DNA from: Phyllobacterium endophyticum
GTDB lineage: Bacteria > Pseudomonadota > Alphaproteobacteria > Rhizobiales > Rhizobiaceae
Reading direction: 5' to 3'
DNA length: 64,000 bases
NCBI RefSeq assembly: GCF_003010935.1
Contig: NZ_PGGN01000001.1
Location: 558,001-622,000 of the forward strand
Shown here in pieces: positions 41,188-60,092 of the stretch. Within the stretch, counting starts at the first letter, position 1; each line of letters opens with the position of its first letter. Under the pieces are notes generated by a model, which worked only from the letters and a program-made list of their open reading frames with translations, was not told the DNA's origin and searched no databases. Made by a program: the position numbers and the translations under genes.

Positions 41188-43863
41188 TCATTGACTGATG
41201 AGAAGCACCTTGTCCTCGGGTTTTGGTTGGCCGCCGTTGCCGCCAAGGGCTACACCGCCGCCCGTCGTTCCGCCGACTATCGCGCCCTGTGACAAGGCAA
41301 TCTCCGCGATCCGCTGGTCACGCCCGAAGTTCTGCAGCTCGATATCGGTGATGGCCACCTTGCCGCTCTCTTTCGGGAACGCGAGTTTCAGCTCTTTGAG
41401 GTGCGCAAGATCGACGCCCCTGAAAGCCTTGAGCGGGATGGCGACCATGTTCAGGAGCATTTTTACCTGGCCATTGGCGTAGGGCGCGTCGTCCTTATGG
41501 TCCAGAAGCGGAATGTCGCTGGCAGGATCAGGTACACGTTCAGGTTCAGGTTTGGTTTTTACAACAATCGTAGACGGAACTTCGAAAGCCGCCTGTTGGC
41601 CGGTCAGATCAATCATGGACCGCGTTGCTTCGTCGGGATTACGCGAGCCAGTTGAAGCATTGGCGACCGGCACTTGCCTGAAGGGATAAGTCTTGGCCCT
41701 CGGCGCATTATAGAGTGCATTGGTGAAATCGCTTGCTGTTATCGTATATGATCGGTTGGCAGTGTCCGTAAGCGTCACCAGCACTTCCTGACCCATGGGA
41801 CGTACGACGGCAACGCGGAAGGTCAGCGAGTCATAGTCATTGGCGGAAAGATCTTTGAGTTCAGCGACAATCGAGGCGTTCGGCTTTGACCAGGCGAGTT
41901 CGGCGTGGTCGGCGATTGAGAGGAGGCCTTTGATGGGCCCATACTCATCAACTATCCACGCGAAGTCGGGCAAACGTCTGAGTGAGCATTTTCCTGCCCT
42001 GTTGGCAATGGAGGGCATGGTGCACCGGGCGGTGGCATCGAAGCCTGAAAGCGTCATGGTGCCGCCGATGAGGTTTCGCCGAAGACTGTCCGCCCACTCG
42101 AAGCGTTGAATAAGCTTGCGTCCAGGATCGGCCTTCTGCACAGTCAACACAACGCGTTCATCGCAAGGGCCTTTGCCGACTGGGCAGGCATTTTCGGGCA
42201 ACTGCGCTATCCCGTTCCACCAGGACGCAAACTTTCGTTCGCCGCCGACGTGATAACGCATGAAGGAATTAATGATAAACATACCGCCTTTTCTCTGATC
42301 TTCCCTGCTCAGACGTATCGAATCAGAAGGGTCAGGCTTCTCCTGGCAGTAATCCGGTCCTCGGCGCGAAGAGAAGTCATCGCTTTTCCATTCAGTGTTG
42401 TAGTAATTATGGTTCGCTCCGTTCACCACGATCTGGTACCGCGGTGCTATGTCGCCCGCATGACCGAAACGGTTACGGTCGTAGGTGGTAGCGCCCTGAA
42501 GATTGGCCATATCACCATCGCAGGAGGGGAGTAACACGGCGAGAGGAACGTTACTCAGACCACTATTGCCACCAAAATCCGTGGGTCCCACAAGGAAGGC
42601 TCCTTTGAATGTATAGTAGGAAGCGTCCTTGCCGTTGGTATTCTTGCTGCCAGAGGCATAGAATATGTTGTACTTGCTGATGGCCTCCCGAAGCTTTTGG
42701 TCGTCAATATGGATTGGGTTGGCTGCTGAAGCAGGTATAATTGCATCGATGAGATCGGGATACGCGGTTTTCATGCCGGAAGGATCGGTCACTGTATCAA
42801 TGATCTTTTTCGCGAGGGCGTCGTCGATTTGAAACGCGCTTTTCAGGGCAGAGAATCCTTGCGGCACCAAGGAAATAAGTTGTTGAAGTGTTTCGTCGGG
42901 GGCTAACGAAAAGGCCTTGCGCAGTGCTTCGAGCGGGGTAGGGAGATGCATCAAGCGCTCTTTAAGCTCTTCTTCCGTAACGCCACTCCGGGTTTCGTTG
43001 AAAAGGATTGTGTTCACAATTCCCTGGCCGCCGCGCGAATGGCCCATCAGGCCTATTCGGGTAAAATCAAGGCTGCCTCTTAACGGATCGAGCTTTCCCC
43101 GATTGCCCCCGAAGTCCACCTGACCAAATCCGTCGATCTGGCGCAAACGGTCCAGCATGCCAAGCACCAGCTGCGCGCGAGACAAACCGGAGGAATCGTC
43201 GAAGTTAGTGGAATTGATCACATTCGCGTCGATTGAAACCACGACGTAGCCGTGCTCAGCAAGGTCTTTGGCCAGATAGTCATAGCCTTCGTAGCTCGGC
43301 TCGAACCAACTATGCATCCCGTGCAAGAAGATGATGATCGGAAAACGCTCGGGAGTCGTTGATGCCTTGCGTGGACTTTCCGGAAAAAATAGCCTGCCTT
43401 TGACGGGCGTAACAAGGGCCTTGCCATTGGCAAAGGTGATCGAATCGTCGGTGTTCATCGTAACTAAATTACCAAGATCGTATTTAAGGGGTGGTGATGA
43501 GTGGTAAGTAGGATTACTGGTTGTATCCGGCGCTGTCTCGATGAAGCGCTTCGCTGGCGGTTCATACGTCTCCGCTCCGCCCTCAGTGACTATAGTCTGC
43601 GTTGGCGCACGCGGGTCGGAAATCACCTTCTCTGGTTCGGTGTCCGGAACGGCCGTGACGATGCCAACCACGGGCTCGTCCGGGACGTTCTTATCGTCGA
43701 TTTTCTTGTCGTTCTCATCCTTCTTGACTTCTGCGACGAACGTTCCGTCGGTCGCCGGCGTTGATGTTGTATTGCCGCCGTCATTGTCGCAGCCCATCAA
43801 AAGGGCAAGCAGCCCGCTAAATATACATGCGCGGGTCAATTCCCGCGTCTTCCATTTGCTCAT
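41188..43863 (-). CDS. Large lipoprotein with alpha/beta-hydrolase domain (paralogue B)
   Basis: The product is 891 residues from the ATG giving MSKWKTRELTRACIFSGLLA and a lipobox ending LLMGC, followed by Asp residues. Hydrolase elements are IIIFLHGMHSWFEPSYEGYDYL, GHSRGG with Ser276, PSCDGD and GANHNYYN. Compared with paralogue A it has a long helical insert after the nucleophile (about residues 290-370) and a Pro/Glu-rich insert in the C-terminal module. The downstream RDQRIAEIALSQG stretch also carries an extra Gly-rich loop. The last residues KPEDKVLLISQ are shared. Asp at position +2 after the lipid-Cys would, by the enterobacterial rule, favour inner-membrane retention; that rule is uncertain here. 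Confidence 0.75.
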   Translation of the reverse strand: MSKWKTRELTRACIFSGLLALLMGCDNDGGNTTSTPATDGTFVAEVKKDENDKKIDDKNVPDEPVVGIVTAVPDTEPEKVISDPRAPTQTIVTEGGAETYEPPAKRFIETAPDTTSNPTYHSSPPLKYDLGNLVTMNTDDSITFANGKALVTPVKGRLFFPESPRKASTTPERFPIIIFLHGMHSWFEPSYEGYDYLAKDLAEHGYVVVSIDANVINSTNFDDSSGLSRAQLVLGMLDRLRQIDGFGQVDFGGNRGKLDPLRGSLDFTRIGLMGHSRGGQGIVNTILFNETRSGVTEEELKERLMHLPTPLEALRKAFSLAPDETLQQLISLVPQGFSALKSAFQIDDALAKKIIDTVTDPSGMKTAYPDLIDAIIPASAANPIHIDDQKLREAISKYNIFYASGSKNTNGKDASYYTFKGAFLVGPTDFGGNSGLSNVPLAVLLPSCDGDMANLQGATTYDRNRFGHAGDIAPRYQIVVNGANHNYYNTEWKSDDFSSRRGPDYCQEKPDPSDSIRLSREDQRKGGMFIINSFMRYHVGGERKFASWWNGIAQLPENACPVGKGPCDERVVLTVQKADPGRKLIQRFEWADSLRRNLIGGTMTLSGFDATARCTMPSIANRAGKCSLRRLPDFAWIVDEYGPIKGLLSIADHAELAWSKPNASIVAELKDLSANDYDSLTFRVAVVRPMGQEVLVTLTDTANRSYTITASDFTNALYNAPRAKTYPFRQVPVANASTGSRNPDEATRSMIDLTGQQAAFEVPSTIVVKTKPEPERVPDPASDIPLLDHKDDAPYANGQVKMLLNMVAIPLKAFRGVDLAHLKELKLAFPKESGKVAITDIELQNFGRDQRIAEIALSQGAIVGGTTGGGVALGGNGGQPKPEDKVLLISQ

Positions 43864-43933
43864 CGGAAACTCCTGACTGGCAGATGCCCGCCGCAGCGAA
43901 CGATCCGCTTTGAAACACATAAAATATCGATGT

Positions 43934-43962: not shown

Positions 43963-44023
43963 CCGACTAACGATTCTTGAGGTGCAACAAGCGTGCCAGA
44001 AAGGGCGATCTTAGACCAATGGC

Positions 44024-49615: not shown

Positions 49616-50164
49616 TTTCGGGTGCTGTTAGGGAGCGCCGTCTGCTTCGATGGGCGTAAAGCGCATTTTATTCGCTGGAATCCTAGTGCACCTGCCTCTC
49701 GACGATTGAGGTTCCACTTCTCGGTCAATCTCGGGCTCCTGCTTCTCCGTCATCGTAAAACACCTCCCTCTCCGTCATCCTCGGGCTTGACCCGAGGACC
49801 CAAGGCCAGGGAGCACAGCTAGTTGCTGGAAACTTCGACGGGGTCCAGCTAGAGCGGATGTTTTGCGTAAGATTTGATTGAGTGCAGTTGTCCTCTGGAA
49901 TGCGCAGTCAAGCTCCAACTCGCACTCCCTGGCCGTGGGTCCTCGGGTCAAGCCCGAGGATGACGGAGAGGTGGAGCCCGAAGATGATGGAGAGGGAGGT
50001 GCGCAGCATGACGGGTAGGTGGAGCCCGAGGATGGCGGAAAGGGAGGGCCTTGGGATGACGGAGAAGGAGGCGCTTGTCGTCGTCCAACAGGGAGGCGCT
50101 TTTCACGAAGAGCGTTCGGCTTTCGTTGAATATACGCGGCCCCGGTTTGCGTAGAAAATGCGGT
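49616..50164. other. Repeat-rich intergenic region
   Basis: No protein gene is supported over these ~550 bp. They hold a long inverted repeat (49768-49970, listed separately) and, at about 49970-50090, several decayed copies of the same GGAGCCCGAGGATGACGGAG-like element. Open frames here translate as repetitive Ser/Arg/Pro strings and are artefacts of the repeats. Confidence 0.7.
49768..49970. repeat. 46-bp inverted repeat pair, rhizobial intergenic repeat type
   Basis: Bases 49768-49813 and 49925-49970 are inverted copies with a single mismatch, 111 bp apart. Each arm itself contains the hairpin CCTCGGGCTTGACCCGAGG (7-8 bp stem). This palindromic CGTCATCCTCGGGCTTGACC family is widespread between genes in Rhizobiales, as I recall. 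Partial copies follow downstream. It may be a small non-autonomous mobile element. Confidence 0.8.
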
Positions 50165-51099: not shown

Positions 51100-51687
51100 A
51101 TGAAGGCTGCGCTCTCCATCATGATCTTCGACGAAAACCGCATCCGCGCCTCGATTATCGAGGAGGGGCTGCGGGAGGCGGGCCATGACCAGGTGGTGGT
51201 CCTGCACGATATTGTCGGTCTGGCGCGGCAGATCGAAATCATTGGCCCGGATGTCATCGTCATCGATATCGAGACGCCAAACCGCGACATGCTGGAGCAT
51301 TTGTTCCAGCTGACGCGTTCCGTGCGCAAGCCCATTGCCATGTTCGTCGATCGCTCGGACAGTTCGTCCATCGAGGCCGCGGTGGAGGCGGGCGTGTCGG
51401 CCTATGTGGTCGACGGGTTGAAGAAGGAGCGTGTCAAGCCGATCCTCGACATGGCCGTGAGCCGCTTCAAGGCTTTCAGCCGGCTGCAGCAGGAACTGGC
51501 GGATGCCAGAAGCGCACTCGAGGAGCGAAAGATAATCGATCGCGCCAAGGGCATTTTGATGAAATCCCGCAATCTGTCGGAAGACGAAGCCTACGCGCTT
51601 CTGCGCCAGACAGCCATGAACGAAAAGAAGAGACTTGCCGATATTGCACAAAGCGTCGTCATGGCGGCGGCAATTCTGGGGAGTTAG
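51100..51687 (+). CDS. nasT: NasT, ANTAR-domain antiterminator of nitrate assimilation genes
   Basis: The product is 195 residues. An N-terminal pseudo-receiver domain (residues 5-120; FDENRIRASIIEEGLREAGH) is followed by an ANTAR RNA-binding domain (about 130-188; ERKIIDRAKGILMKSRNLSEDEAYALLRQTAM). NasT binds twin hexaloop hairpins in the leader of nitrate genes and blocks termination; without nitrate it is held by NasS. The target leader is readable at 53187-53308. nasS follows 9 bp downstream. An NtrC-type site lies just upstream. Confidence 0.95.
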   Translation: MKAALSIMIFDENRIRASIIEEGLREAGHDQVVVLHDIVGLARQIEIIGPDVIVIDIETPNRDMLEHLFQLTRSVRKPIAMFVDRSDSSSIEAAVEAGVSAYVVDGLKKERVKPILDMAVSRFKAFSRLQQELADARSALEERKIIDRAKGILMKSRNLSEDEAYALLRQTAMNEKKRLADIAQSVVMAAAILGS

Positions 51688-51696
51688 GAAAGATCC

Positions 51697-52998
51697 ATGA
51701 GCTTCATCCCCACCGGAATTGATCAAGGCAGCGCGGGTTGGCAGAGCGGTGGCTTGACCGGACCTGCGACAGGCCGCAGCCAGGGCACAAGGCTGGTGCG
51801 CGCCGGGTTCATTCCGCTTGTCGATGCGTCGGTGTTGATTGCCGCCGCGGAGTTCGGTTTTGCGGCGCGCGAAGGCATTCAGCTCGATCTGGTCAAGGAT
51901 GTCTCCTGGGCCAATATCCGCGACCGCCTGGCGTTCCGGCAGTTCGATGTCGCCCATATGCTTGCCCCGATGCCTGTCGCTTCCGCGCTGGGTCTTGGGT
52001 CCAACCCGTCTCCGTCGATAGCGCCATTTTCGCTGGGGCGGGGCGGCAATGCCATCACCCTGTCGCTGCGGCTCTATCGCCGCATGCAGGAAATGGCCGG
52101 ACTTGCCGGTCAGGAAGACGCCCTGACGAATGCGAAGGCGCTCAAGCTTGTCATCGATGACATGCGGAAAAAGGGAGAGGCACTGCCGGTACTCGGCATG
52201 ACCTATCCATTCTCGTCGCATAATTATGAGCTGCGCTATTGGCTGGCGGCCGGCGGCATTCATCCTGACACGGATGTGAAGCTCGTGGTCGTGCCGCCAC
52301 CAATGACATCAGATGCGCTTTCCGCCGGGGCAATCGACGGCTTCTGCGTCGGTGCGCCGTGGAACATGGTGGCCGTTTCGCGCGAACTCGGGCGCATCGT
52401 GGCGGTCAAGCAGGATATCTGGCCGTCGAGCCCGGAAAAAGTGCTCGGCACGCGTCCCGAATGGGCGGAGCAAAATCCTGAAACGCTGTCGCGCTTGATC
52501 GTCGCGCTGGACCGGGCTGCCTCCTGGTGTGATATCCCGGACAATCGGCGTGACCTGGCGCAACTCCTCGCAGAACCGCGTTATCTCGACGTGCCGTTCG
52601 ATATTCTCCATCCGGTGCTCATGGGCAGGTTCACCATCGATCCGGTTGGAACCCGGCGGATAGTGCCTGATTACTTGACGTTCCATCGTGGCGGAGCAAA
52701 TTTCCCGTGGATCAGCCAGGCGCAATGGATATTCAGCCAGATGGTGCGATGGGGGCAGGTTGCCTATTCGCCCGAAAGCCAAGGGCAGGTCTCGTCGGCA
52801 TTTCGGCCTGACATATACCGCAATGCCTTGGGCAGCCGTGCCGATATCCCGGCAGGCGATACGCGTATCGAAGGAAACGCGAAGGGCGACGGATTCATGG
52901 ACAGCACGGTGTTCTATCCGGAAGACATATCCGGTTATATCGCAGGTTCCGCAATTCGCAGCGCTGCGCCCAAAACTACGGGTCTGGTCGATCTTTAG
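51697..52998 (+). CDS. nasS: NasS, cytoplasmic nitrate/nitrite sensor (NrtA/CmpA-like)
   Basis: The product is 433 residues of the NrtA periplasmic-binding fold, but with no signal peptide (it starts MSFIPTGIDQGSAGWQSGGL), so it is cytoplasmic. Recognisable segments are VRAGFIPLVDASVLIAAAEF, the MLAPMPVASALGLG loop and the MTYPFSSHNYELRYWLAAGG segment. That is the NasS class, which binds nitrate or nitrite and releases NasT to bind RNA. No NrtB/NrtD transporter genes lie alongside, supporting the sensor over the transporter reading. It is co-transcribed with nasT. Confidence 0.92.
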   Translation: MSFIPTGIDQGSAGWQSGGLTGPATGRSQGTRLVRAGFIPLVDASVLIAAAEFGFAAREGIQLDLVKDVSWANIRDRLAFRQFDVAHMLAPMPVASALGLGSNPSPSIAPFSLGRGGNAITLSLRLYRRMQEMAGLAGQEDALTNAKALKLVIDDMRKKGEALPVLGMTYPFSSHNYELRYWLAAGGIHPDTDVKLVVVPPPMTSDALSAGAIDGFCVGAPWNMVAVSRELGRIVAVKQDIWPSSPEKVLGTRPEWAEQNPETLSRLIVALDRAASWCDIPDNRRDLAQLLAEPRYLDVPFDILHPVLMGRFTIDPVGTRRIVPDYLTFHRGGANFPWISQAQWIFSQMVRWGQVAYSPESQGQVSSAFRPDIYRNALGSRADIPAGDTRIEGNAKGDGFMDSTVFYPEDISGYIAGSAIRSAAPKTTGLVDL

Positions 52999-53002
52999 GA
53001 GC

Positions 53003-53017
53003 GCACATATTTTGTGC
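53003..53017 (+). promoter_or_regulatory. NtrC-type enhancer upstream of the nitrate operon
   Basis: GCAC-ATATTTT-GTGC matches the NtrC spacing (GCAC-N7-GTGC). A second inverted repeat, TTGTGC-CCT-GCACAA (53012-53026), partly overlaps it. The site is about 150 bp upstream of the sigma-54 promoter, a normal enhancer distance, and points to nitrogen-limitation control. Confidence 0.6.
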
Positions 53018-53157
53018 CCTGCACAATAAAAGCGCATTCGCCTGGGGCCACTTGCATAAATCTGTTGCTTGGTGCCGACGCCCAACTTCCAGCCGTCGCG
53101 GCTTTGGAGCGCTAATTAGCCAGGTATTTCAGTAGCATATGATTTTCTTTCAACGAC

Positions 53158-53173
53158 TGGCACGCCACTTGCA
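53158..53173 (+). promoter_or_regulatory. Sigma-54 promoter of the nitrate operon
   Basis: TGGCACG-CCAC-TTGCA fits the -24/-12 consensus exactly (TGGCACG-N4-TTGCA). The expected transcription start is near 53184, giving a leader of about 170 nt before the transporter gene. Confidence 0.85.
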
Positions 53174-53186
53174 TTGCTAATGCTGT

Positions 53187-53308
53187 CCCGTCAACGAAGA
53201 CCGGGGCCGTGAGCACCGCCATCGGGTGCTATCAAAGACACAGACGTCGCTTGGCGAATTCATTCCGCGGACCATCCGGGAAGTGAATTCAATCCAGCGG
53301 CGTTTTTT
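53187..53308 (+). promoter_or_regulatory. NasT-responsive leader: twin ANTAR hexaloop hairpins and intrinsic terminator
   Basis: Hairpin P1 (53187-53205) is CCCGTC-[AACGAA]-GAC(C)GGG. Hairpin P2 (53237-53248) is GAC-[ACAGAC]-GTC. Both loops are hexanucleotides with A at position 1 and G at position 4, the ANTAR target rule. A hairpin AGCACC/GGTGCT (53212-53230) lies between them. The terminator has a 9-bp base (CGTCGCT-T-GG with CCAGCGGCG), an upper stem built on GAATTCA/TGAATTC, and then TTTTTT (53303-53308). P2's 3' arm lies inside the terminator's 5' arm, so NasT binding and termination exclude each other. Confidence 0.8.
53245..53308 (+). terminator. Conditional terminator in nitrate operon leader
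   Basis: The stem pairs 53245-53254 with 53294-53302 (one bulged T, one G-U), then 53256-53266 with 53279-53290 (one bulged G), and is followed directly by six T. It lies before any gene of the operon, so it acts as an attenuator. Confidence 0.8.
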
Positions 53309-53352
53309 CGTTTCAAGAGGCCCGAAGCGGCCGCAGCGTTCAGGGGAACACG

Positions 53353-54600
53353 ATGAAAGACGGATCATCGAACGGCATACCGGCAAAAGAGGCGAGCCAG
53401 GCCCTTTGGGTTTCGACCGCCGCATTCACAATCTGTTTTGCCGTCTGGACTATCTTTGCCATCATCGGCGTCAGGATAAAGCAGGAACTCGGCCTCAACG
53501 AAGCGCAGTTCGGCCTTTTGGTCGGCACGCCGATCCTGTCGGGCTCGCTCAGCCGCATCTTGCTGGGCGTGTGGACCACCCGCTACGGCGGACGCGTTGT
53601 CTACACGGCAACGATGCTTGCCGCGGCGCTCGCAACTTTCCTGCTCGCCTATGCGACCACCTTTCCTCAGATGCTGCTTGCAGGCTTCTGCCTTGGACTT
53701 GCAGGGGGATCGTTCGCGGTTGGCGTGGCCTACGTGTCTCCCTTCTTTCCTCCCGAAAAACAGGGCACTGCGCTAGGTATTTTCGGTGCAGGCAATGTCG
53801 GCGCGGCACTCACCAAGTTCCTCGCTCCGCTGGTCCTTGCCGCCTATGGCTGGCAGGCGGTTGCGGAAGTGTGGGCCGCCGCGCTTGTCCTCATGGCGCT
53901 CGTGTTCTGGTTCACCACCACGGACGATCCGGCGTTCCGTGAACGCCGCCTGCGCAAGGAGCAGCCTCGCAGTTTCCTGTTGGAATTCGCTCCGCTGAAG
54001 GACCTTCAAGTCTGGCGCTTCTCGCTTTACTATTTCTTCTCGTTCGGCGGCTTTGTCGCCCTGTCGCTGTGGCTCCCGCGCTACCTCGTCGGCGTCTATG
54101 GTTTCGGACTCGAGTCCGCCGGCATGCTCGCCGCTGCCTATTCGATCCCGGGCAGCATTTTCCGGGCCTATGGCGGAGCGCTCTCCGACAGGATCGGCGC
54201 GCGCAAGGTGATGTATATGACGCTGGCGGTGGCAAGTGCCGCGACGCTCATACTCTCCTTGCCGCCGGCAATGGGTCCTCAGTCCGGTCCGCTTGCGATT
54301 TCATCCACCGCCTTCGTGATCGTGCTTTTTGTTCTCGGCTTCTTCATGAGCCTCGGTAAAGCCGCTGTCTACAAGCACATCCCTGCCTATTATCCAGCAA
54401 GCATCGGCGCCGTGGGCGGTGTCGTCGGCATGATGGGCGGCCTCGGCGGGTTTGTCCTTCCCATCGCATTTGGCCTGCTGAAGGACTTCACCGGGCTCTG
54501 GTCAAGCTGTTTCATGCTGCTTTTTCTCATCGTCGCCGTCTCACTTGTCTGGATGCACCTCTCCATCCGGCAAATGCAACGCCGCCCTGCCTTCGCTTGA
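53353..54600 (+). CDS. Nitrate/nitrite MFS transporter (NarK/NasA type)
   Basis: The product is 415 residues with twelve predicted helices. The nitrate signature GTALGIFGAGNVGAALTKFL in helix 5 is present, as are the paired Arg positions (RILLGVWTTRYGG; RAYGGALSDRIGARKVMYM). It imports nitrate for assimilation. AGGGGAACACG precedes the ATG. It is the first gene of the operon and stands right behind the NasT-controlled leader; nirB begins 23 bp downstream. Confidence 0.93.
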   Translation: MKDGSSNGIPAKEASQALWVSTAAFTICFAVWTIFAIIGVRIKQELGLNEAQFGLLVGTPILSGSLSRILLGVWTTRYGGRVVYTATMLAAALATFLLAYATTFPQMLLAGFCLGLAGGSFAVGVAYVSPFFPPEKQGTALGIFGAGNVGAALTKFLAPLVLAAYGWQAVAEVWAAALVLMALVFWFTTTDDPAFRERRLRKEQPRSFLLEFAPLKDLQVWRFSLYYFFSFGGFVALSLWLPRYLVGVYGFGLESAGMLAAAYSIPGSIFRAYGGALSDRIGARKVMYMTLAVASAATLILSLPPAMGPQSGPLAISSTAFVIVLFVLGFFMSLGKAAVYKHIPAYYPASIGAVGGVVGMMGGLGGFVLPIAFGLLKDFTGLWSSCFMLLFLIVAVSLVWMHLSIRQMQRRPAFA

Positions 54601-54623
54601 ATATCGATACCGGAAACCAATCC

Positions 54624-57077
54624 ATGAAGAAACAAAAGCTCATCATCATCGGCAATGGCATGGCGCCGGGCCGCGCGCTGGAACATCTGTTCGAACTGGC
54701 GCCCGACGCCTATGACGTGACGATTTTCAATGCCGAACCGCGCGTCAACTATGATCGGATAATGCTCTCGCCGGTGCTTTCCGGCGAGAAGGAATTCGAA
54801 GAAATCATCATCCATGGCGATGGTTGGTACATCAAGCATGGCATCATGCTTTATAAGGGTCATAAGGTGGTCAATATCGACCGCGTTGCCAAGACGGTCA
54901 CGTCGGATGCGGGAACGACCGAGCCTTATGACAAGCTGCTGATCGCCACGGGCTCTTCCCCTTTCATTCTGCCGGTGCCAGGTAATAATCTTCCCGGCGT
55001 TCTGACTTACCGCGACCTCGACGACGTCAGGGCCATGCTTTTGGCGGCTCAGTCGCGAGCAAAGGCCATCGTCATCGGGGGCGGGCTGCTTGGCCTCGAA
55101 GCGGCGGCCGGTCTCAAATCCCGCGATATGGATGTGACGGTTCTGCATGTCATGCCGACTTTGATGGAGCGGCAGCTCGATCCGGCGGCGGGCTATCTTC
55201 TTGAAAAAGCGGTTGAAGCGCGCGGCATCAAGGTCATTACCAAGGCCAGCACCAAGGAAATTATCGGCGAGAAGAAAGTCGAAGGCGTCCTGCTTGCCGA
55301 TGGCACGGTGCTGCCGGCCGATCTTGTGGTGATGGCTGTCGGCATCCGGCCAAGTGCTTCTCTTGCCAAGGATACAGGGCTTGAATGCAATCGAGGCATT
55401 GTCACGGATGCCGGCATGCGTACGTCCGATCCGGATATTTTCGCCATTGGTGAGTGTGCCGAGGTTGGAGGGCAGTGCTATGGGCTCGTGGCGCCGCTCT
55501 ATGAAATGGCACGTGTCGTCGCAGCCCAGCTTGCGGGGAACAGCGAAGCCGCCTTCGTGCACAGCGAAACACCGACCAAGCTCAAGGTTACCGGCATCAA
55601 CGTCTTTTCCGTCGGCGATCTCGGCGAAGGAGACGATCGGCAGGAGATTGTCCTGCGCGACGCCGCCGCGGGCGTCTACAAGCGGCTTGTCCTCAAGGAT
55701 GACCGTATCATAGGGACGGTACTCTACGGAGAAACCTCGGACGGTGCCTGGTTCCATGACCTGACAAAAAAGCGCACCGACATTTCGGAGATGCGCGACA
55801 CCCTCATTTTCGGCCAGTCCTACCAGGGAGGGTCCCCGCTGGACCCTATGGCGGCCGTTGCAGCCTTGCCAGATGATGCGGAAATCTGCGGTTGCAACGG
55901 CATATGCAAGGGCAAGATCACCGGCACGATAAGTGCCAAGGGATTGACATCGCTCGATGATGTCCGCGCCCATACCAAGGCGTCCGCTTCCTGCGGGAGT
56001 TGCACCGGACTTGTCGAGCAGCTTTTGTCGCTGACATTGGGAGATAGCTACAATCCTTCCGCTGTAACGCCTATGTGCAGCTGCACCGATCTTGGTCATG
56101 ATGATGTGCGCCGTTTGATCAAGGCGAAGGGTTTGAAATCCATTCCGGCGGTGATGCAGGAGCTTGAGTGGAAAACCTCCTGCGGTTGCGCCAAGTGCCG
56201 CCCGGCCTTGAACTACTACCTCGTTTCAGATTGGCCGGATGAATATGCCGACGACTACCAGTCGCGTTTCATCAATGAGCGAGTTCACGCCAATATCCAA
56301 AAAGACGGGACCTATTCGGTCGTGCCACGCATGTGGGGCGGGATGACCAGCTCGAAGGAATTGCGTGCCATTGCCGATGTGGTCGACAAGTTCGCGATAC
56401 CGGCTGTGAAGGTCACCGGCGGTCAGCGCATCGACATGCTCGGCATCAAGAAAGAAGATTTGCCTGCCGTTTGGGCCGATCTCGGCAAGGCCGGCTTCGT
56501 CTCGGGACAAGCTTATGCCAAGGGCCTCCGCACGGTGAAAACCTGCGTGGGGACGGACTGGTGCCGGTTCGGTACGCAGGATTCGACCGGTCTTGGTATC
56601 CGCATCGAAAAGTTCATGTGGGGATCCTGGACACCAGCCAAGCTGAAAATGGCGGTATCCGGTTGCCCGCGCAATTGTGCGGAGGCCACCTGCAAGGACA
56701 TAGGCATCATCTGCGTAGATTCCGGTTTCGAGATCCATTTCGCCGGCGCCGCCGGGCTCGATATCAAGGGAACGGAAATTCTCGGACTGGTCCATACGGA
56801 AGACGAGGCGCTCGAACATGTCGTGGCACTCGCCCAGATGTATCGCGAGCAGGGCCGTTATCTGGAGCGCATCTACAAATGGGCGAAGCGCGTCGGGCTT
56901 GATGAAATCCGCCGGCAGATCATGGGCGATGCTGACAAGCGCAAGGGCTATTTCGATCGTTTTGTTTTCAGCCAGAAATTTGCCCAGGTCGATCCCTGGT
57001 CCGAGCGTGTGTCCGGGGTGGACAAGCACGAGTTCCGCCCGATGGCGACGATCCCCTACCAACAAGCAGCAGAGTGA
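54624..57077 (+). CDS. nirB: Assimilatory nitrite reductase [NAD(P)H], large subunit
   Basis: The product is 817 residues from the ATG giving MKKQKLIIIGNGMAPGRALE. It reduces nitrite to ammonium with six electrons. Domains in order are the FAD/NAD(P)H pyridine nucleotide-disulfide reductase part (FAD motif near residue 8; NAD motif VIGGGLLGLEAA near 155), two BFD-like [2Fe-2S] segments (CGCNGICKGK and SCGSCTGL; CSCTDL, CGCAKCRP), and the siroheme/[4Fe-4S] domain with CVGTDWC and GCPRNCAEATC. All cluster cysteines are present. nirD follows after 6 bp. Confidence 0.96.
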   Translation: MKKQKLIIIGNGMAPGRALEHLFELAPDAYDVTIFNAEPRVNYDRIMLSPVLSGEKEFEEIIIHGDGWYIKHGIMLYKGHKVVNIDRVAKTVTSDAGTTEPYDKLLIATGSSPFILPVPGNNLPGVLTYRDLDDVRAMLLAAQSRAKAIVIGGGLLGLEAAAGLKSRDMDVTVLHVMPTLMERQLDPAAGYLLEKAVEARGIKVITKASTKEIIGEKKVEGVLLADGTVLPADLVVMAVGIRPSASLAKDTGLECNRGIVTDAGMRTSDPDIFAIGECAEVGGQCYGLVAPLYEMARVVAAQLAGNSEAAFVHSETPTKLKVTGINVFSVGDLGEGDDRQEIVLRDAAAGVYKRLVLKDDRIIGTVLYGETSDGAWFHDLTKKRTDISEMRDTLIFGQSYQGGSPLDPMAAVAALPDDAEICGCNGICKGKITGTISAKGLTSLDDVRAHTKASASCGSCTGLVEQLLSLTLGDSYNPSAVTPMCSCTDLGHDDVRRLIKAKGLKSIPAVMQELEWKTSCGCAKCRPALNYYLVSDWPDEYADDYQSRFINERVHANIQKDGTYSVVPRMWGGMTSSKELRAIADVVDKFAIPAVKVTGGQRIDMLGIKKEDLPAVWADLGKAGFVSGQAYAKGLRTVKTCVGTDWCRFGTQDSTGLGIRIEKFMWGSWTPAKLKMAVSGCPRNCAEATCKDIGIICVDSGFEIHFAGAAGLDIKGTEILGLVHTEDEALEHVVALAQMYREQGRYLERIYKWAKRVGLDEIRRQIMGDADKRKGYFDRFVFSQKFAQVDPWSERVSGVDKHEFRPMATIPYQQAAE

Positions 57078-57422: not shown

Positions 57423-60092
57423 ATGAACAGTAGCGTTTCTCCCGAAACCGTCCGCACGACCTGCGCCTATTGCGGCGTTGGCTGCGGCGTTCTCGCCACA
57501 CGGGAGGAGAGCGGAGCCATTGGCATCAAGGGTGATCCCATGCATCCCGCCAATTTCGGGCGTCTCTGCTCGAAAGGCTCCGCTCTTGGCGAGACCGTTG
57601 ACCTCGAGGGGCGGCTGCTCGAGCCCCGGATCGGCGGCAAGCCGGCAAGCTGGGATACGGCACTCGATCTCGTGGCCAGCAGTTTTGCTGAAACCATAAG
57701 CGAACACGGTCCTGACAGCGTGGCCTTCTATGTCTCCGGTCAGTTGCTGACCGAAGATTATTACGTCGCCAACAAGCTGATGAAGGGCTTTATCGGCTCG
57801 GCCAATATCGATACCAATTCGCGGTTGTGCATGTCGTCTTCGGTGGCCGGACACAGGCGTGCTTTCGGCTCGGATACGGTACCCGGAACCTATGAGGATC
57901 TGGAGCTTGCCGATCTTATCCTTTTGACCGGCTCCAATCTCGCCTGGTGTCACCCGGTACTTTACCAGCGCATCGCCGCCGCCAAGGCAAAGCGACCCGC
58001 GATGCGCGTCGTGCTTATCGATCCCCGACGTACCATGACGTCCGATATCGCCGACATGCACCTCGCGATAAAGTCCGACGGCGATGCAGCCCTGTTCATC
58101 GGCCTGCTCGGATATATCGCAGCGCAAGCGATGGTGGATCGCACATATGTCGACCGGTACACTTCGGGATTTGAGCAGGCTCTGGCTATCGCCAGCAGTC
58201 ACGACCTGCGCAGTATCTCCGCTCGAACCGGTATTTCGCCCGAGCAGTTGCGCGAGTTCTTCAACCTTTTCACGCAAACCGAGCGCGTTGTCACGGTCTA
58301 TAGTCAGGGCGTCAATCAGTCAGCTGGCGGGACCGACAAGGTCAACGCCATCATCAATTGCCATCTCGCGACAGGCCGCATTGGCCGCCCGGGAATGGGA
58401 CCGTTTTCGGTAACCGGTCAACCCAATGCAATGGGCGGCCGCGAAGTCGGCGGTCTTGCCAATATGCTGGCTGCCCATATGCATATCGAAGATGAGGGGC
58501 ATCGGGATCTGGTCCAGACCTTCTGGAATTCTCCCACGATCGCGTCGCGCCCGGGCCTGAAAGCGGTCGATCTTTTCAACGCGGTGCGGACAGGCAAGAT
58601 CAAGGCCCTGTGGATCATGGCAACCAATCCGGTCGATTCCATGCCGGAAGCCGATCTGGTCGTGAAAGCGCTGCAGGAGTGCCCGTTCGTTGTCGTATCC
58701 GATATCAATTCGGTAAATGACACGACGATTCATGCCCACGTACTCCTTCCTGCCGCCGGATGGGGCGAGAAGGATGGTACGGTAACAAATTCGGAACGGC
58801 GCATCAGCAGGCAGCGCCCGTTCCTGCCTTTGCCTGGCAAGGCCAGGCCGGATTGGTGGATCATTACACAGGTTGCACGCCGCCTCGGCTTTGCGGAAGC
58901 GTTCCCATACGAGACGCCGGCTCAGATCTTTGCCGAACACGCGGCTCTCTCCGGGCACGGTAATCGCGGCAGCCGTGATTTCGACATCAGCGCGCATTCG
59001 GCGATTTCAGATGTGGAATATGACGATCTTTCTCCCTTTCAGTGGCCGCAGGGCAGGGGGGAGGCCGCACTCGAGAGACGCTTTTTCTCGCAGGGCGAGT
59101 TCTACACGCCGGACCAGCGCGCCCGGTTCATCCCGGTAAACCCGGTCAACGAGGAGGCTGCGGATCCGCGCTTCGCTTTTACACTGAACACGGGCCGGGT
59201 CCGCGACCATTGGCATACGATGACGCGTACGGGAAAAAGCGCGCGTCTATCCGCGCATTTTGCCGAGCCTTTTGCCGAGATCAATCCGCTGGACGCAGCG
59301 GTTCACGGCATTGCCGACGCCAGTCTGGTAAAACTCGGTAACGACCACGGCACGATCATCGTCCGAGCATTGCTGACAGACCGGCAGGCAAGAGGCAGAA
59401 TCTTCGTTCCCATGCATTGGAATGGACAGTTTGCCGGCGATGCGCGCGTGGACAAGCTTGTTTCAGCCAATGTTGATCCGATTTCCGGCCAGCCCGCTTT
59501 GAAGATGGCGCGTGTTGCGATGAAGCCGTTCGAGGCCGCCTGGTACGGATTCTCGGTCATGCGAGAAAAGCCGGACACTACCGCCGATTATTGGGCGCTC
59601 GCCCGCGCAGAAGGCGGTTTTCGGCTGGAGCTCGCCGGCCTCGAGGAACCTCGCGACTGGAGTGCTTTTGCCCGCCGCTTGTTCGGCTCCAGCACCGATG
59701 CGCCATTGCTCGCCTATCATGATGAACGCCAGGGTCAGCATCGTATGGCGATTTTCGACAATGAGACCCTGATCGGGGTACTTTATGTGGCACGTGAACC
59801 AGTCACTGTGTCGCGCAGTTGGGCCGCGGAACAGCTGACGCTGCCCTTTGCCAGATCGCACCAGCGGTTTCAGGTACTTGCCGGCAGGCCGGGCAAGGAT
59901 ATGCCCGACAAAGGCGCCATCGTCTGCGCCTGCTTCGGTATCGGTCGAAACGAGATCGCAACTGCGGCAATGAATGGCTGCCGGAGCGTTGAAGCGATTG
60001 GCGCGAAGCTCAAGGCGGGAACCAATTGCGGCTCCTGCCGCGCCGAGATCAAGGGCATACTCGACACAAGTATGGTTGAAGCAGCCGAATAG
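57423..60092 (+). CDS. nasA: Assimilatory nitrate reductase catalytic subunit
   Basis: The product is 889 residues. It is a molybdopterin (bis-MGD) oxidoreductase that reduces nitrate to nitrite in the cytoplasm. The N-terminal [4Fe-4S] motif uses C14, C17, C21 and C49 (TCAYCGVGC, LCSKG). Mo-bis-MGD segments include SRLCMSSSVAGHRRAFGSD (likely Mo-ligand Cys) and the C-terminal molydopterin-dinucleotide domain (HWHTMTRTGKS). A BFD-like [2Fe-2S] domain closes the protein (CACFGIGRNE, NCGSCRAEI). There is no Tat signal, as expected for an assimilatory enzyme. It is the last gene of the operon. Confidence 0.96.
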   Translation: MNSSVSPETVRTTCAYCGVGCGVLATREESGAIGIKGDPMHPANFGRLCSKGSALGETVDLEGRLLEPRIGGKPASWDTALDLVASSFAETISEHGPDSVAFYVSGQLLTEDYYVANKLMKGFIGSANIDTNSRLCMSSSVAGHRRAFGSDTVPGTYEDLELADLILLTGSNLAWCHPVLYQRIAAAKAKRPAMRVVLIDPRRTMTSDIADMHLAIKSDGDAALFIGLLGYIAAQAMVDRTYVDRYTSGFEQALAIASSHDLRSISARTGISPEQLREFFNLFTQTERVVTVYSQGVNQSAGGTDKVNAIINCHLATGRIGRPGMGPFSVTGQPNAMGGREVGGLANMLAAHMHIEDEGHRDLVQTFWNSPTIASRPGLKAVDLFNAVRTGKIKALWIMATNPVDSMPEADLVVKALQECPFVVVSDINSVNDTTIHAHVLLPAAGWGEKDGTVTNSERRISRQRPFLPLPGKARPDWWIITQVARRLGFAEAFPYETPAQIFAEHAALSGHGNRGSRDFDISAHSAISDVEYDDLSPFQWPQGRGEAALERRFFSQGEFYTPDQRARFIPVNPVNEEAADPRFAFTLNTGRVRDHWHTMTRTGKSARLSAHFAEPFAEINPLDAAVHGIADASLVKLGNDHGTIIVRALLTDRQARGRIFVPMHWNGQFAGDARVDKLVSANVDPISGQPALKMARVAMKPFEAAWYGFSVMREKPDTTADYWALARAEGGFRLELAGLEEPRDWSAFARRLFGSSTDAPLLAYHDERQGQHRMAIFDNETLIGVLYVAREPVTVSRSWAAEQLTLPFARSHQRFQVLAGRPGKDMPDKGAIVCACFGIGRNEIATAAMNGCRSVEAIGAKLKAGTNCGSCRAEIKGILDTSMVEAAE

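Follow-up and report, generated by a model that had tools for sequence, protein, structure and literature searches.

The region between nasS and a narK-type gene in Phyllobacterium endophyticum is most probably (roughly 85%) the leader of the narK-nirB-nasA genes, in which a sigma-54 promoter is followed by a NasS-NasT-gated transcription attenuator in a three-hairpin form. Judged by its sequence, the leader belongs to a known kind, the ANTAR/NasT attenuators with published anatomy. New relative to the ANTAR attenuators described in the accessible literature is a conserved, folded linker between the hairpins P1 and P2; a link to the Rfam narK RNA (RF03032) came as a by-product. The window referred to below is the whole stretch of 64,000 nucleotides that was analysed, and positions are counted from its first letter.

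On the forward strand, nasT (51100-51687) encodes a receiver and ANTAR antitermination protein (Pfam PF00072, E 1.3e-7; PF03861, E 2e-21) whose counterparts encoded in Phyllobacterium genomes share as much as 96% identity with it, and nasS (51697-52998) encodes a nitrate/nitrite-binding-protein-like sensor (Pfam PF13379 NMT1_2, E 5.8e-73). From nasS to the narK-type gene, positions 53003-53353 hold in order NtrC-like dyads, the sigma-54 promoter, P1, a middle hairpin, P2 and a terminator. Downstream on the same strand lie the gene for a narK-type nitrate/nitrite transporter (53353-54600; Pfam MFS_1, best NCBIfam match TIGR00886 of the NarK family, E 7.2e-67, under the model cut-off), nirB for the nitrite reductase large subunit (54597-57077; NCBIfam TIGR02374, above cut-off) and a gene whose Pfam matches indicate a molybdopterin nitrate reductase with a C-terminal BFD iron-sulphur domain (57423-60092). 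The latter product matched NCBIfam AssmNtatRedNasC (E 1.5e-127) below cut-off and scored higher with Fdh-alpha, also below its cut-off, and it is named NasA/NasC type because of its gene context. A REC-ANTAR protein and a nitrate-binding-protein-like NasS, the two parts of a NasS-NasT system, thus adjoin nas genes, and nasT, one of two ANTAR genes in the genome, supplies the cognate ANTAR protein. The second ANTAR gene (L002; G000:C8, about position 220897) is flanked by genes for an AmiC-like binding protein and an Opp-type permease, which by eye, from the translations, resembles an AmiC-AmiR arrangement. About 1 kb 5' of nasT, an imperfect 24-base tandem repeat occupies 49951-50077 (4.8 copies at 49951-50065, 68% matches).

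The sigma-54 promoter TGGCACGCCACTTGCA (53158-53173, forward strand) matches TGGCAC-N5-TTGCA perfectly, and its spacing predicts a transcription start near 53184. TGGCAC-N5-TTGC stands at a conserved place 5' of the leader; among 80 named loci the site was exact in 66 and had at most one mismatch in 79. Further upstream, the dyad GCAC-N7-GTGC (53003-53017) and a second, weaker one, TGCAC-N7-GCGCA (53020-53036), are enhancer-like sites which we take to be of the NtrC type. With at most two mismatches, TGCAC-N7-GTGCA was found in the 250 nt preceding the sigma-54 site in 31 of 45 relatives versus 8.4% of 900 mononucleotide shuffles, the sole control type, and exact GCAC-N7-GTGC in 4 of the 45 versus 0.1% of these shuffles. 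The window contains a single further perfect match to a sigma-54-like site (43983-43998, reverse strand); 63 bases separate it from a following open frame of 910 aa (41188-43920, reverse strand), the product of which appears by eye to be lipoprotein-like with an alpha/beta-hydrolase-type motif.

P1 (53185-53207, forward strand, as are all leader elements) carries the hexaloop AACGAA at 53193-53198, with A in loop position 1 (A1) and G in position 4 (G4), and a bulged C at 53201. The putative antiterminator P2 (53237-53248) reads GAC-ACAGAC-GUC, again with A1 and G4 in its loop (53240-53245). An intrinsic terminator is predicted at 53242-53308; its base 53244-53251 pairs with 53296-53303, its T-run TTTTTT lies at 53303-53308 and its 5' arm includes the 3' arm of P2. 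The fold of 53184-53316 reached -55 kcal/mol (z = -4.76), and none of 200 shuffles was equally good. A simple terminator scan of the window did not report the terminator at 53242-53308, probably because its stem is interrupted. Measured against the published ANTAR dual-hexaloop definition (PMC3369931), the leader has two hairpins of at least three pairs with hexanucleotide loops that both carry A1 and G4, a P2 that overlaps the 5' arm of the terminator and by computation excludes it, and a linker of 29 nt where the accessible text of that source permits a variable length. Within the leader, at 53226, a GTG codon opens a reading frame of 238 aa that continues into narK but out of the narK frame; control through a leader peptide was considered and set aside.

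Folding of growing transcripts with ViennaRNA, as equilibrium calculations and not kinetics, gave P2 a pairing probability of 0.95 at ends 53250-53254, 0.15-0.59 at ends 53258-53286 and 0.87-0.95 at ends 53290-53298, followed by 0.001 at 53302, where the terminator base had reached 0.98. The finished leader folds at -54.7 kcal/mol versus -46.1 kcal/mol with P2 forced, a cost of 8.6 kcal/mol. Given these pairing probabilities and this cost, P2 and the terminator are in the folding model mutually exclusive, termination is the default and something must hold P2. By itself P2 has 3 pairs and -0.7 kcal/mol, and it therefore needs help to win over the terminator.

The first-pass annotation of this DNA had read the region as a sigma-54 promoter plus ANTAR attenuator, citing a consensus promoter, two hexaloop hairpins with loops AACGAA and ACAGAC, a strong terminator with TTTTTT whose 5' arm contains the 3' arm of P2, and nasT and nasS just upstream. 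Promoter, loops, coordinates, terminator and both neighbouring genes (the latter through the ANTAR and NMT1_2 domains) all proved correct. The same annotation had made its reading depend on P2 and the terminator competing and on A1 and G4 being conserved in homologous leaders; the two structures do compete in the foldings, and the loop letters are conserved in the alignment described next. The attenuator reading is thus supported by anatomy, by neighbours and by conservation in relatives, and protein binding and nitrate-dependent read-through would follow from what is known of related systems.

An alignment of 46 leaders, the window and 45 others, was obtained from a set of 80 (79 loci plus the window) by dereplication at 90% identity. 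Minus-strand loci, 12 hybrid Rhizobium leaders (see below) and L068, where no sigma-54 site was found, were left out. Selection required a GAC-N6-G[TA]C motif plus a T-run, and loop letters and P1 had no part in it; the loop conservation is therefore unbiased and that of the P2 stem biased. In this sequence-only alignment A1 and G4 of both the P1 and the P2 loop were invariant (46/46). In P1, two-sided changes affected four of the six pairs, and 93.5% of the cells were paired. The P2 stem was invariant, GAC-N6-G[TA]C being the selection criterion, and six terminator base pairs were 100% paired in 46/46 leaders, the T-run likewise being a selection criterion.

A descriptor of this architecture (P1 of at least 5 pairs, P2, a terminator overlapping P2 and a T-run) matched the window once on both strands, at the leader. 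The same descriptor gave 3 hits in total on 100 dinucleotide shuffles of the window, one in each of three shuffled windows. So low a rate makes chance unlikely, though these three hits are what can be said for the alternative that the sigma-54 promoter is followed here by a plain terminator and fortuitous hexaloops. The location between nasS and narK, the loop invariance in 46 leaders and the covariation speak against such an accident, and because relatives conserve the loops and covary, chance is a practically negligible explanation. A covariance model of the leader (R1) found one strong match in its own genome (E 6.6e-16, the next at 0.23) and matches in 5 of 289 genomes of the class including its own, a count that says little on absence, with about 11 candidates scored per genome. 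The pattern GACANNGACGTCGC, which is blind to sites with different P2 stems, occurs at 5 places in the genome, and a terminator and P1 accompany it only at this leader (0 of the 4 others).

Several known systems share parts of this design, and the comparisons that follow draw on the accessible portions of the papers cited. With the NasS-NasT leaders of Alphaproteobacteria, Paracoccus nasA and Bradyrhizobium nosR, the window has the regulator pair and the leader hairpins in common. In Paracoccus, nitrate/nitrite dissociates NasS-NasT and NasT binds the P. denitrificans nasA leader RNA (PMC3795266), and for the Bradyrhizobium nosR leader NasT binding is stated as well (PMC6759348). The P. denitrificans hairpins HI and HII lie, by published positions only, 137 and 91 bp before nasA and thus 46 bp apart (PMC5424462), compared with 47 nt between the loop starts in the window. 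The accessible descriptions of the Paracoccus and Bradyrhizobium leaders mention no stem between the hairpins, which is, as far as those descriptions go, a difference from the window with its middle hairpin. The EutV-controlled eut leaders of Enterococcus faecalis have two A1/G4 hexaloops and a P2 overlapping the terminator, as in the window (PMC3369931, PMC3369936). The nitrate-responsive nasF leader of Klebsiella oxytoca, bound by NasR, also has two A1/G4 hexaloops, with a C:G closing pair preferred (PMC7496416). Unlike the window, Klebsiella has no NasS-NasT pair; its NasR carries a NIT domain with which it detects nitrate directly.

EutV is activated by phosphorylation, whereas NasT is activated by release from NasS. 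In the proposed mechanism, nitrogen limitation would lead through an NtrC-like activator to transcription from a start near 53184. Without nitrate, NasS would hold NasT while the polymerase makes P1, the middle hairpin and then P2; at about 53302 the terminator would invade P2, as in the computed competition, and transcription would stop at the U-run. With nitrate, NasS would release NasT, for which Paracoccus provides the precedent (PMC3795266). A NasT dimer, by analogy with the EutV and NasR work, would then grip the A1/G4 loops of P1 and P2 and stabilise P2, the terminator would lose its U-proximal pairs and read-through would result. The middle hairpin would fold away most of the long linker, by which P1 and P2 would be brought near each other.

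The middle hairpin (53212-53230) lies within the P1-P2 linker and consists of 6 pairs and the 7-nt loop GCCAUCG, with a stability of -9.0 kcal/mol. The first-pass annotation had noticed it as an extra hairpin in an unusually long linker of 31 nt. The hairpin was confirmed by folding and covariation; the length of 31 nt holds if P1 is taken as 53187-53205, with its outer two pairs omitted, but becomes 29 nt with the folded P1 at 53185-53207. Outside the middle hairpin, 10 nt of the linker are unpaired, 4 on the 5' side and 6 on the 3' side. The linkers of all 46 aligned leaders (23-33 nt) were predicted to contain a fold of at least 4 pairs, with a median z of -2.4 versus 100 shuffles each. In a MAFFT alignment 86.9% of the middle-hairpin cells were paired and 5 of the 6 pairs had two-sided changes. 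Cells changed on both sides numbered 37 versus a shuffle mean of 13.9 (reached by 0 of 500 shuffles), and when the 3' arm was shifted by 1-3 columns, pairing fell to 22-53%. The number of two-sided pairs was not above that of shuffles (244 of 500 as high), and the support for covariation therefore rests on cell counts, on the score and on the response to sliding. RNAalifold, run on the alignment of 46 leaders, did not draw the middle hairpin, perhaps because its loop varies in length, whereas counting pairs in that alignment speaks for the hairpin.

The loops of the middle hairpin were 3-9 nt long and in no leader of the 46 had the form of an A1/G4 hexaloop, which makes this hairpin unlike a third ANTAR site. 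It is very unlikely that it serves as a third protein site, for a second NasT dimer or another protein, although the model put forward by Walshe et al. (PMC8934654, in its accessible part) includes a recruitment hairpin and binding in succession, and although the hybrid Rhizobium leaders retain P1 and the middle hairpin despite an unrecognisable old P2. Its placement between P1 and P2, its strength, its prediction in 46/46 linkers and its varying loop length would also suit a pause signal that slows the polymerase for NasT loading before the terminator, the leader still being an ANTAR attenuator. Such a role appears unlikely, as short-linker leaders (16 of the 164 loci surveyed below are short-form and not hybrids) do without a middle hairpin, and as the unpaired remainder of the long linkers resembles the length of eut linkers, which a pause signal does not predict. 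The reading that we slightly favour, by analogy with the eut leaders, is that of a folded spacer: the middle hairpin may bring P1 and P2 close, with its pairing kept and its sequence free.

The eut linkers measure 5-12 nt, as opposed to the 29-31 nt with a 6-pair hairpin of the window, and in E. faecalis a linker of 14 nt, and also one of 3 nt, drastically reduces induction (PMC3369931). Lengthening the eut linker by 20 nt abolished antitermination in vitro (PMC8934654; both sources in their accessible text). Judged by these eut limits, a linker of 29 nt would not be expected to work. The eut limits are not exactly transferable to NasT, since short-form leaders found here have 3-nt linkers.

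The linker was surveyed in 164 loci, namely the window, 83 further loci and the 80 named ones, strand-corrected by their NasS match; by this match 39 of the 83 were minus-strand and were turned (17 of 29 among L004-L032). The P1-P2-terminator form was parsed in 129 of the 164. The distance from the nearest P1 to P2 was 20-36 nt in 99 loci and 0-9 nt in 30, with none at 10-19 nt; 35 loci were unparsed and were kept as misses, though several show AACGA-type hexaloops by eye. Among the 30 short-linker loci were 14 hybrids, and ten of the other 16 had 3 nt; in all, 24 of the 30 had a 3-nt linker by the P1 boundary used here. L138 was counted as short (0 nt), a 32-nt long reading being equally possible. 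There were 87 distinct long and 25 distinct short P1-linker-P2 strings. Of the distinct long linkers, 82 of 87 folded at -5 kcal/mol or better, and their unpaired remainder had a median of 7 nt and measured 5-12 nt in 65 of 87. Folded long linkers with a short unpaired remainder are what one would see if the hairpin took up surplus linker. Exceptions were the long-form linkers of L134, L142 and L174, all outside family f1, with poor hairpins.

The survey also bears on control by a single hexaloop, in which NasT would act on just one hairpin, P1 or possibly P2, and could do without the second. In the EutV crystal each ANTAR domain contacts one hexaloop, and the minimal site has been redefined to one hexaloop (PMC8934654, accessible part). 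In the available text on Paracoccus, hairpin I was essential in vivo, the only one to be so, and mutation of hairpin II hardly lowered expression (PMC5424462). The loop-to-loop distance of the long forms is nevertheless narrow (36-54 nt, and 46-48 nt in 65 of 87) and both loops keep A1 and G4 in all 46 aligned leaders, which makes a single-hexaloop mode quite unlikely. Returning to the attenuator with a folded spacer, several points stand against it, these being the mild hairpin II phenotype in Paracoccus, the 3-nt short linkers, the weak-hairpin exceptions and the slight nitrate induction in Sinorhizobium meliloti. In S. meliloti, narB/nirB were slightly induced by nitrate and raised about 1000-fold by removal of ammonium, according to the accessible part of the report (PMC6616083). 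This species is absent from the loci surveyed; S. medicae (L107) has a long-form leader.

At the gathering threshold, Rfam reported tRNA only in the whole window. A permissive search of a 203-nt stretch matched RF03032, the narK RNA, over 53159-53250 (E 0.0042) with a score of 25.1 versus the gathering score of 43.2, and the leader is accordingly not assigned to this family; none of 14 other loci matched RF03032 at E 0.1. The RF03032 consensus consists of a sigma-54 -24/-12 element, a hairpin with a 6-nt loop and then GACAAAGACGUCGC, which equals P2 and is left unpaired in the Rfam model. These elements are common to the window. A search of 398 genomes of the phylum listed 36 places in 21 genomes, and 30 of the 36 listed places (L181-L210) were read. 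P1 had a hexaloop closed by C-G and carrying A1 and G4 in 30/30 of these (25/30 under a bulge-free rule), P2 had G4 in 30/30, A1 in 28/30 and three standard pairs in 27/30, and a terminator overlapped P2 in 27/30. The linker was 3-9 nt in 27/30, in contrast to the long linker of the window. L198 and L199, of the RF03032 type, had linkers of 15-19 nt that fold at -1.8 and 0 kcal/mol, so unfolded intermediate lengths exist outside the window's group. An ANTAR gene was present in 21/21 RF03032 genomes versus 155/396 in the phylum sample, and the nearest RF03032 copy lay within 2.5 kb of an ANTAR gene in 19/21; these genomes are related and the counts are not independent trials. On this comparison of sequences, the RF03032 narK RNA very probably represents an ANTAR leader of the NasT type plus the promoter that precedes it. 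Neither a link between RF03032 and ANTAR nor a middle hairpin between ANTAR hairpins was found in the accessible literature searched, nor was the phrase 'narK motif' found among the papers listed there.

Most long-form loci belong to one GTDB family, and five further families of its class (f14, f24, f96, f108 and f113) have long forms too. On a tree of 78 NasT proteins, in which bootstrap support is not settled and several branches are long, the long form required 10 label changes versus a shuffled mean of 26.3 and the short form 7 versus 12.3. With fewer label changes than in shuffles, the leader form follows the NasT lineage, yet it has switched several times. On balance we are inclined to regard the three-hairpin leaders with a spacer-like middle hairpin as a distinct ANTAR class that may have been exchanged with short linkers several times, the narK RNA being the short-linker form of this sigma-54 and NasT switch in other Proteobacteria. 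Hairpin-bearing linkers, and RF03032 as an ANTAR site, would help to find NasT targets of rhizobia and their relatives that short-linker searches miss.

Hybrid leaders were found in 12 of the 80 named loci, from Rhizobium phaseoli, R. sophoriradicis, R. lentis, R. esperanzae and relatives (L072, L074, L075, L088, L092, L094, L099, L101, L106, L108, L109 and L111), and additionally in L016 and L151. In these, the sigma-54 promoter, a long-form P1 and the middle hairpin are followed by an unrecognisable old P2, then by a complete short-linker P1'-P2'-terminator and narK-nirB. The short-linker motif of the 12 named hybrids starts about 48-144 nt after P1. Their NasT proteins are 77-78% identical to that of the window, and the single hybrid row retained in the NasT tree lies inside the long-form clade. 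The hybrids are a natural experiment, with both linker forms alongside one NasT clade. If true, the spacer would explain how a linker 2-3 times longer than that of EutV can work. The ANTAR dimer reading of two hexaloops is under revision, between simultaneous and successive contact, and linker length is an experimental handle on it; the long folded, short and hybrid natural leaders are ready-made constructs that separate contour length from three-dimensional spacing.

A further leader form may be present in family f160, where 8 of nine loci were unparsed behind nasS (L161, L163, L164 and L166-L170). In six of these leaders a sigma-54-like site is accompanied by the hexaloop stretch AGC-AACGAA-GCT, and they are perhaps a third form.
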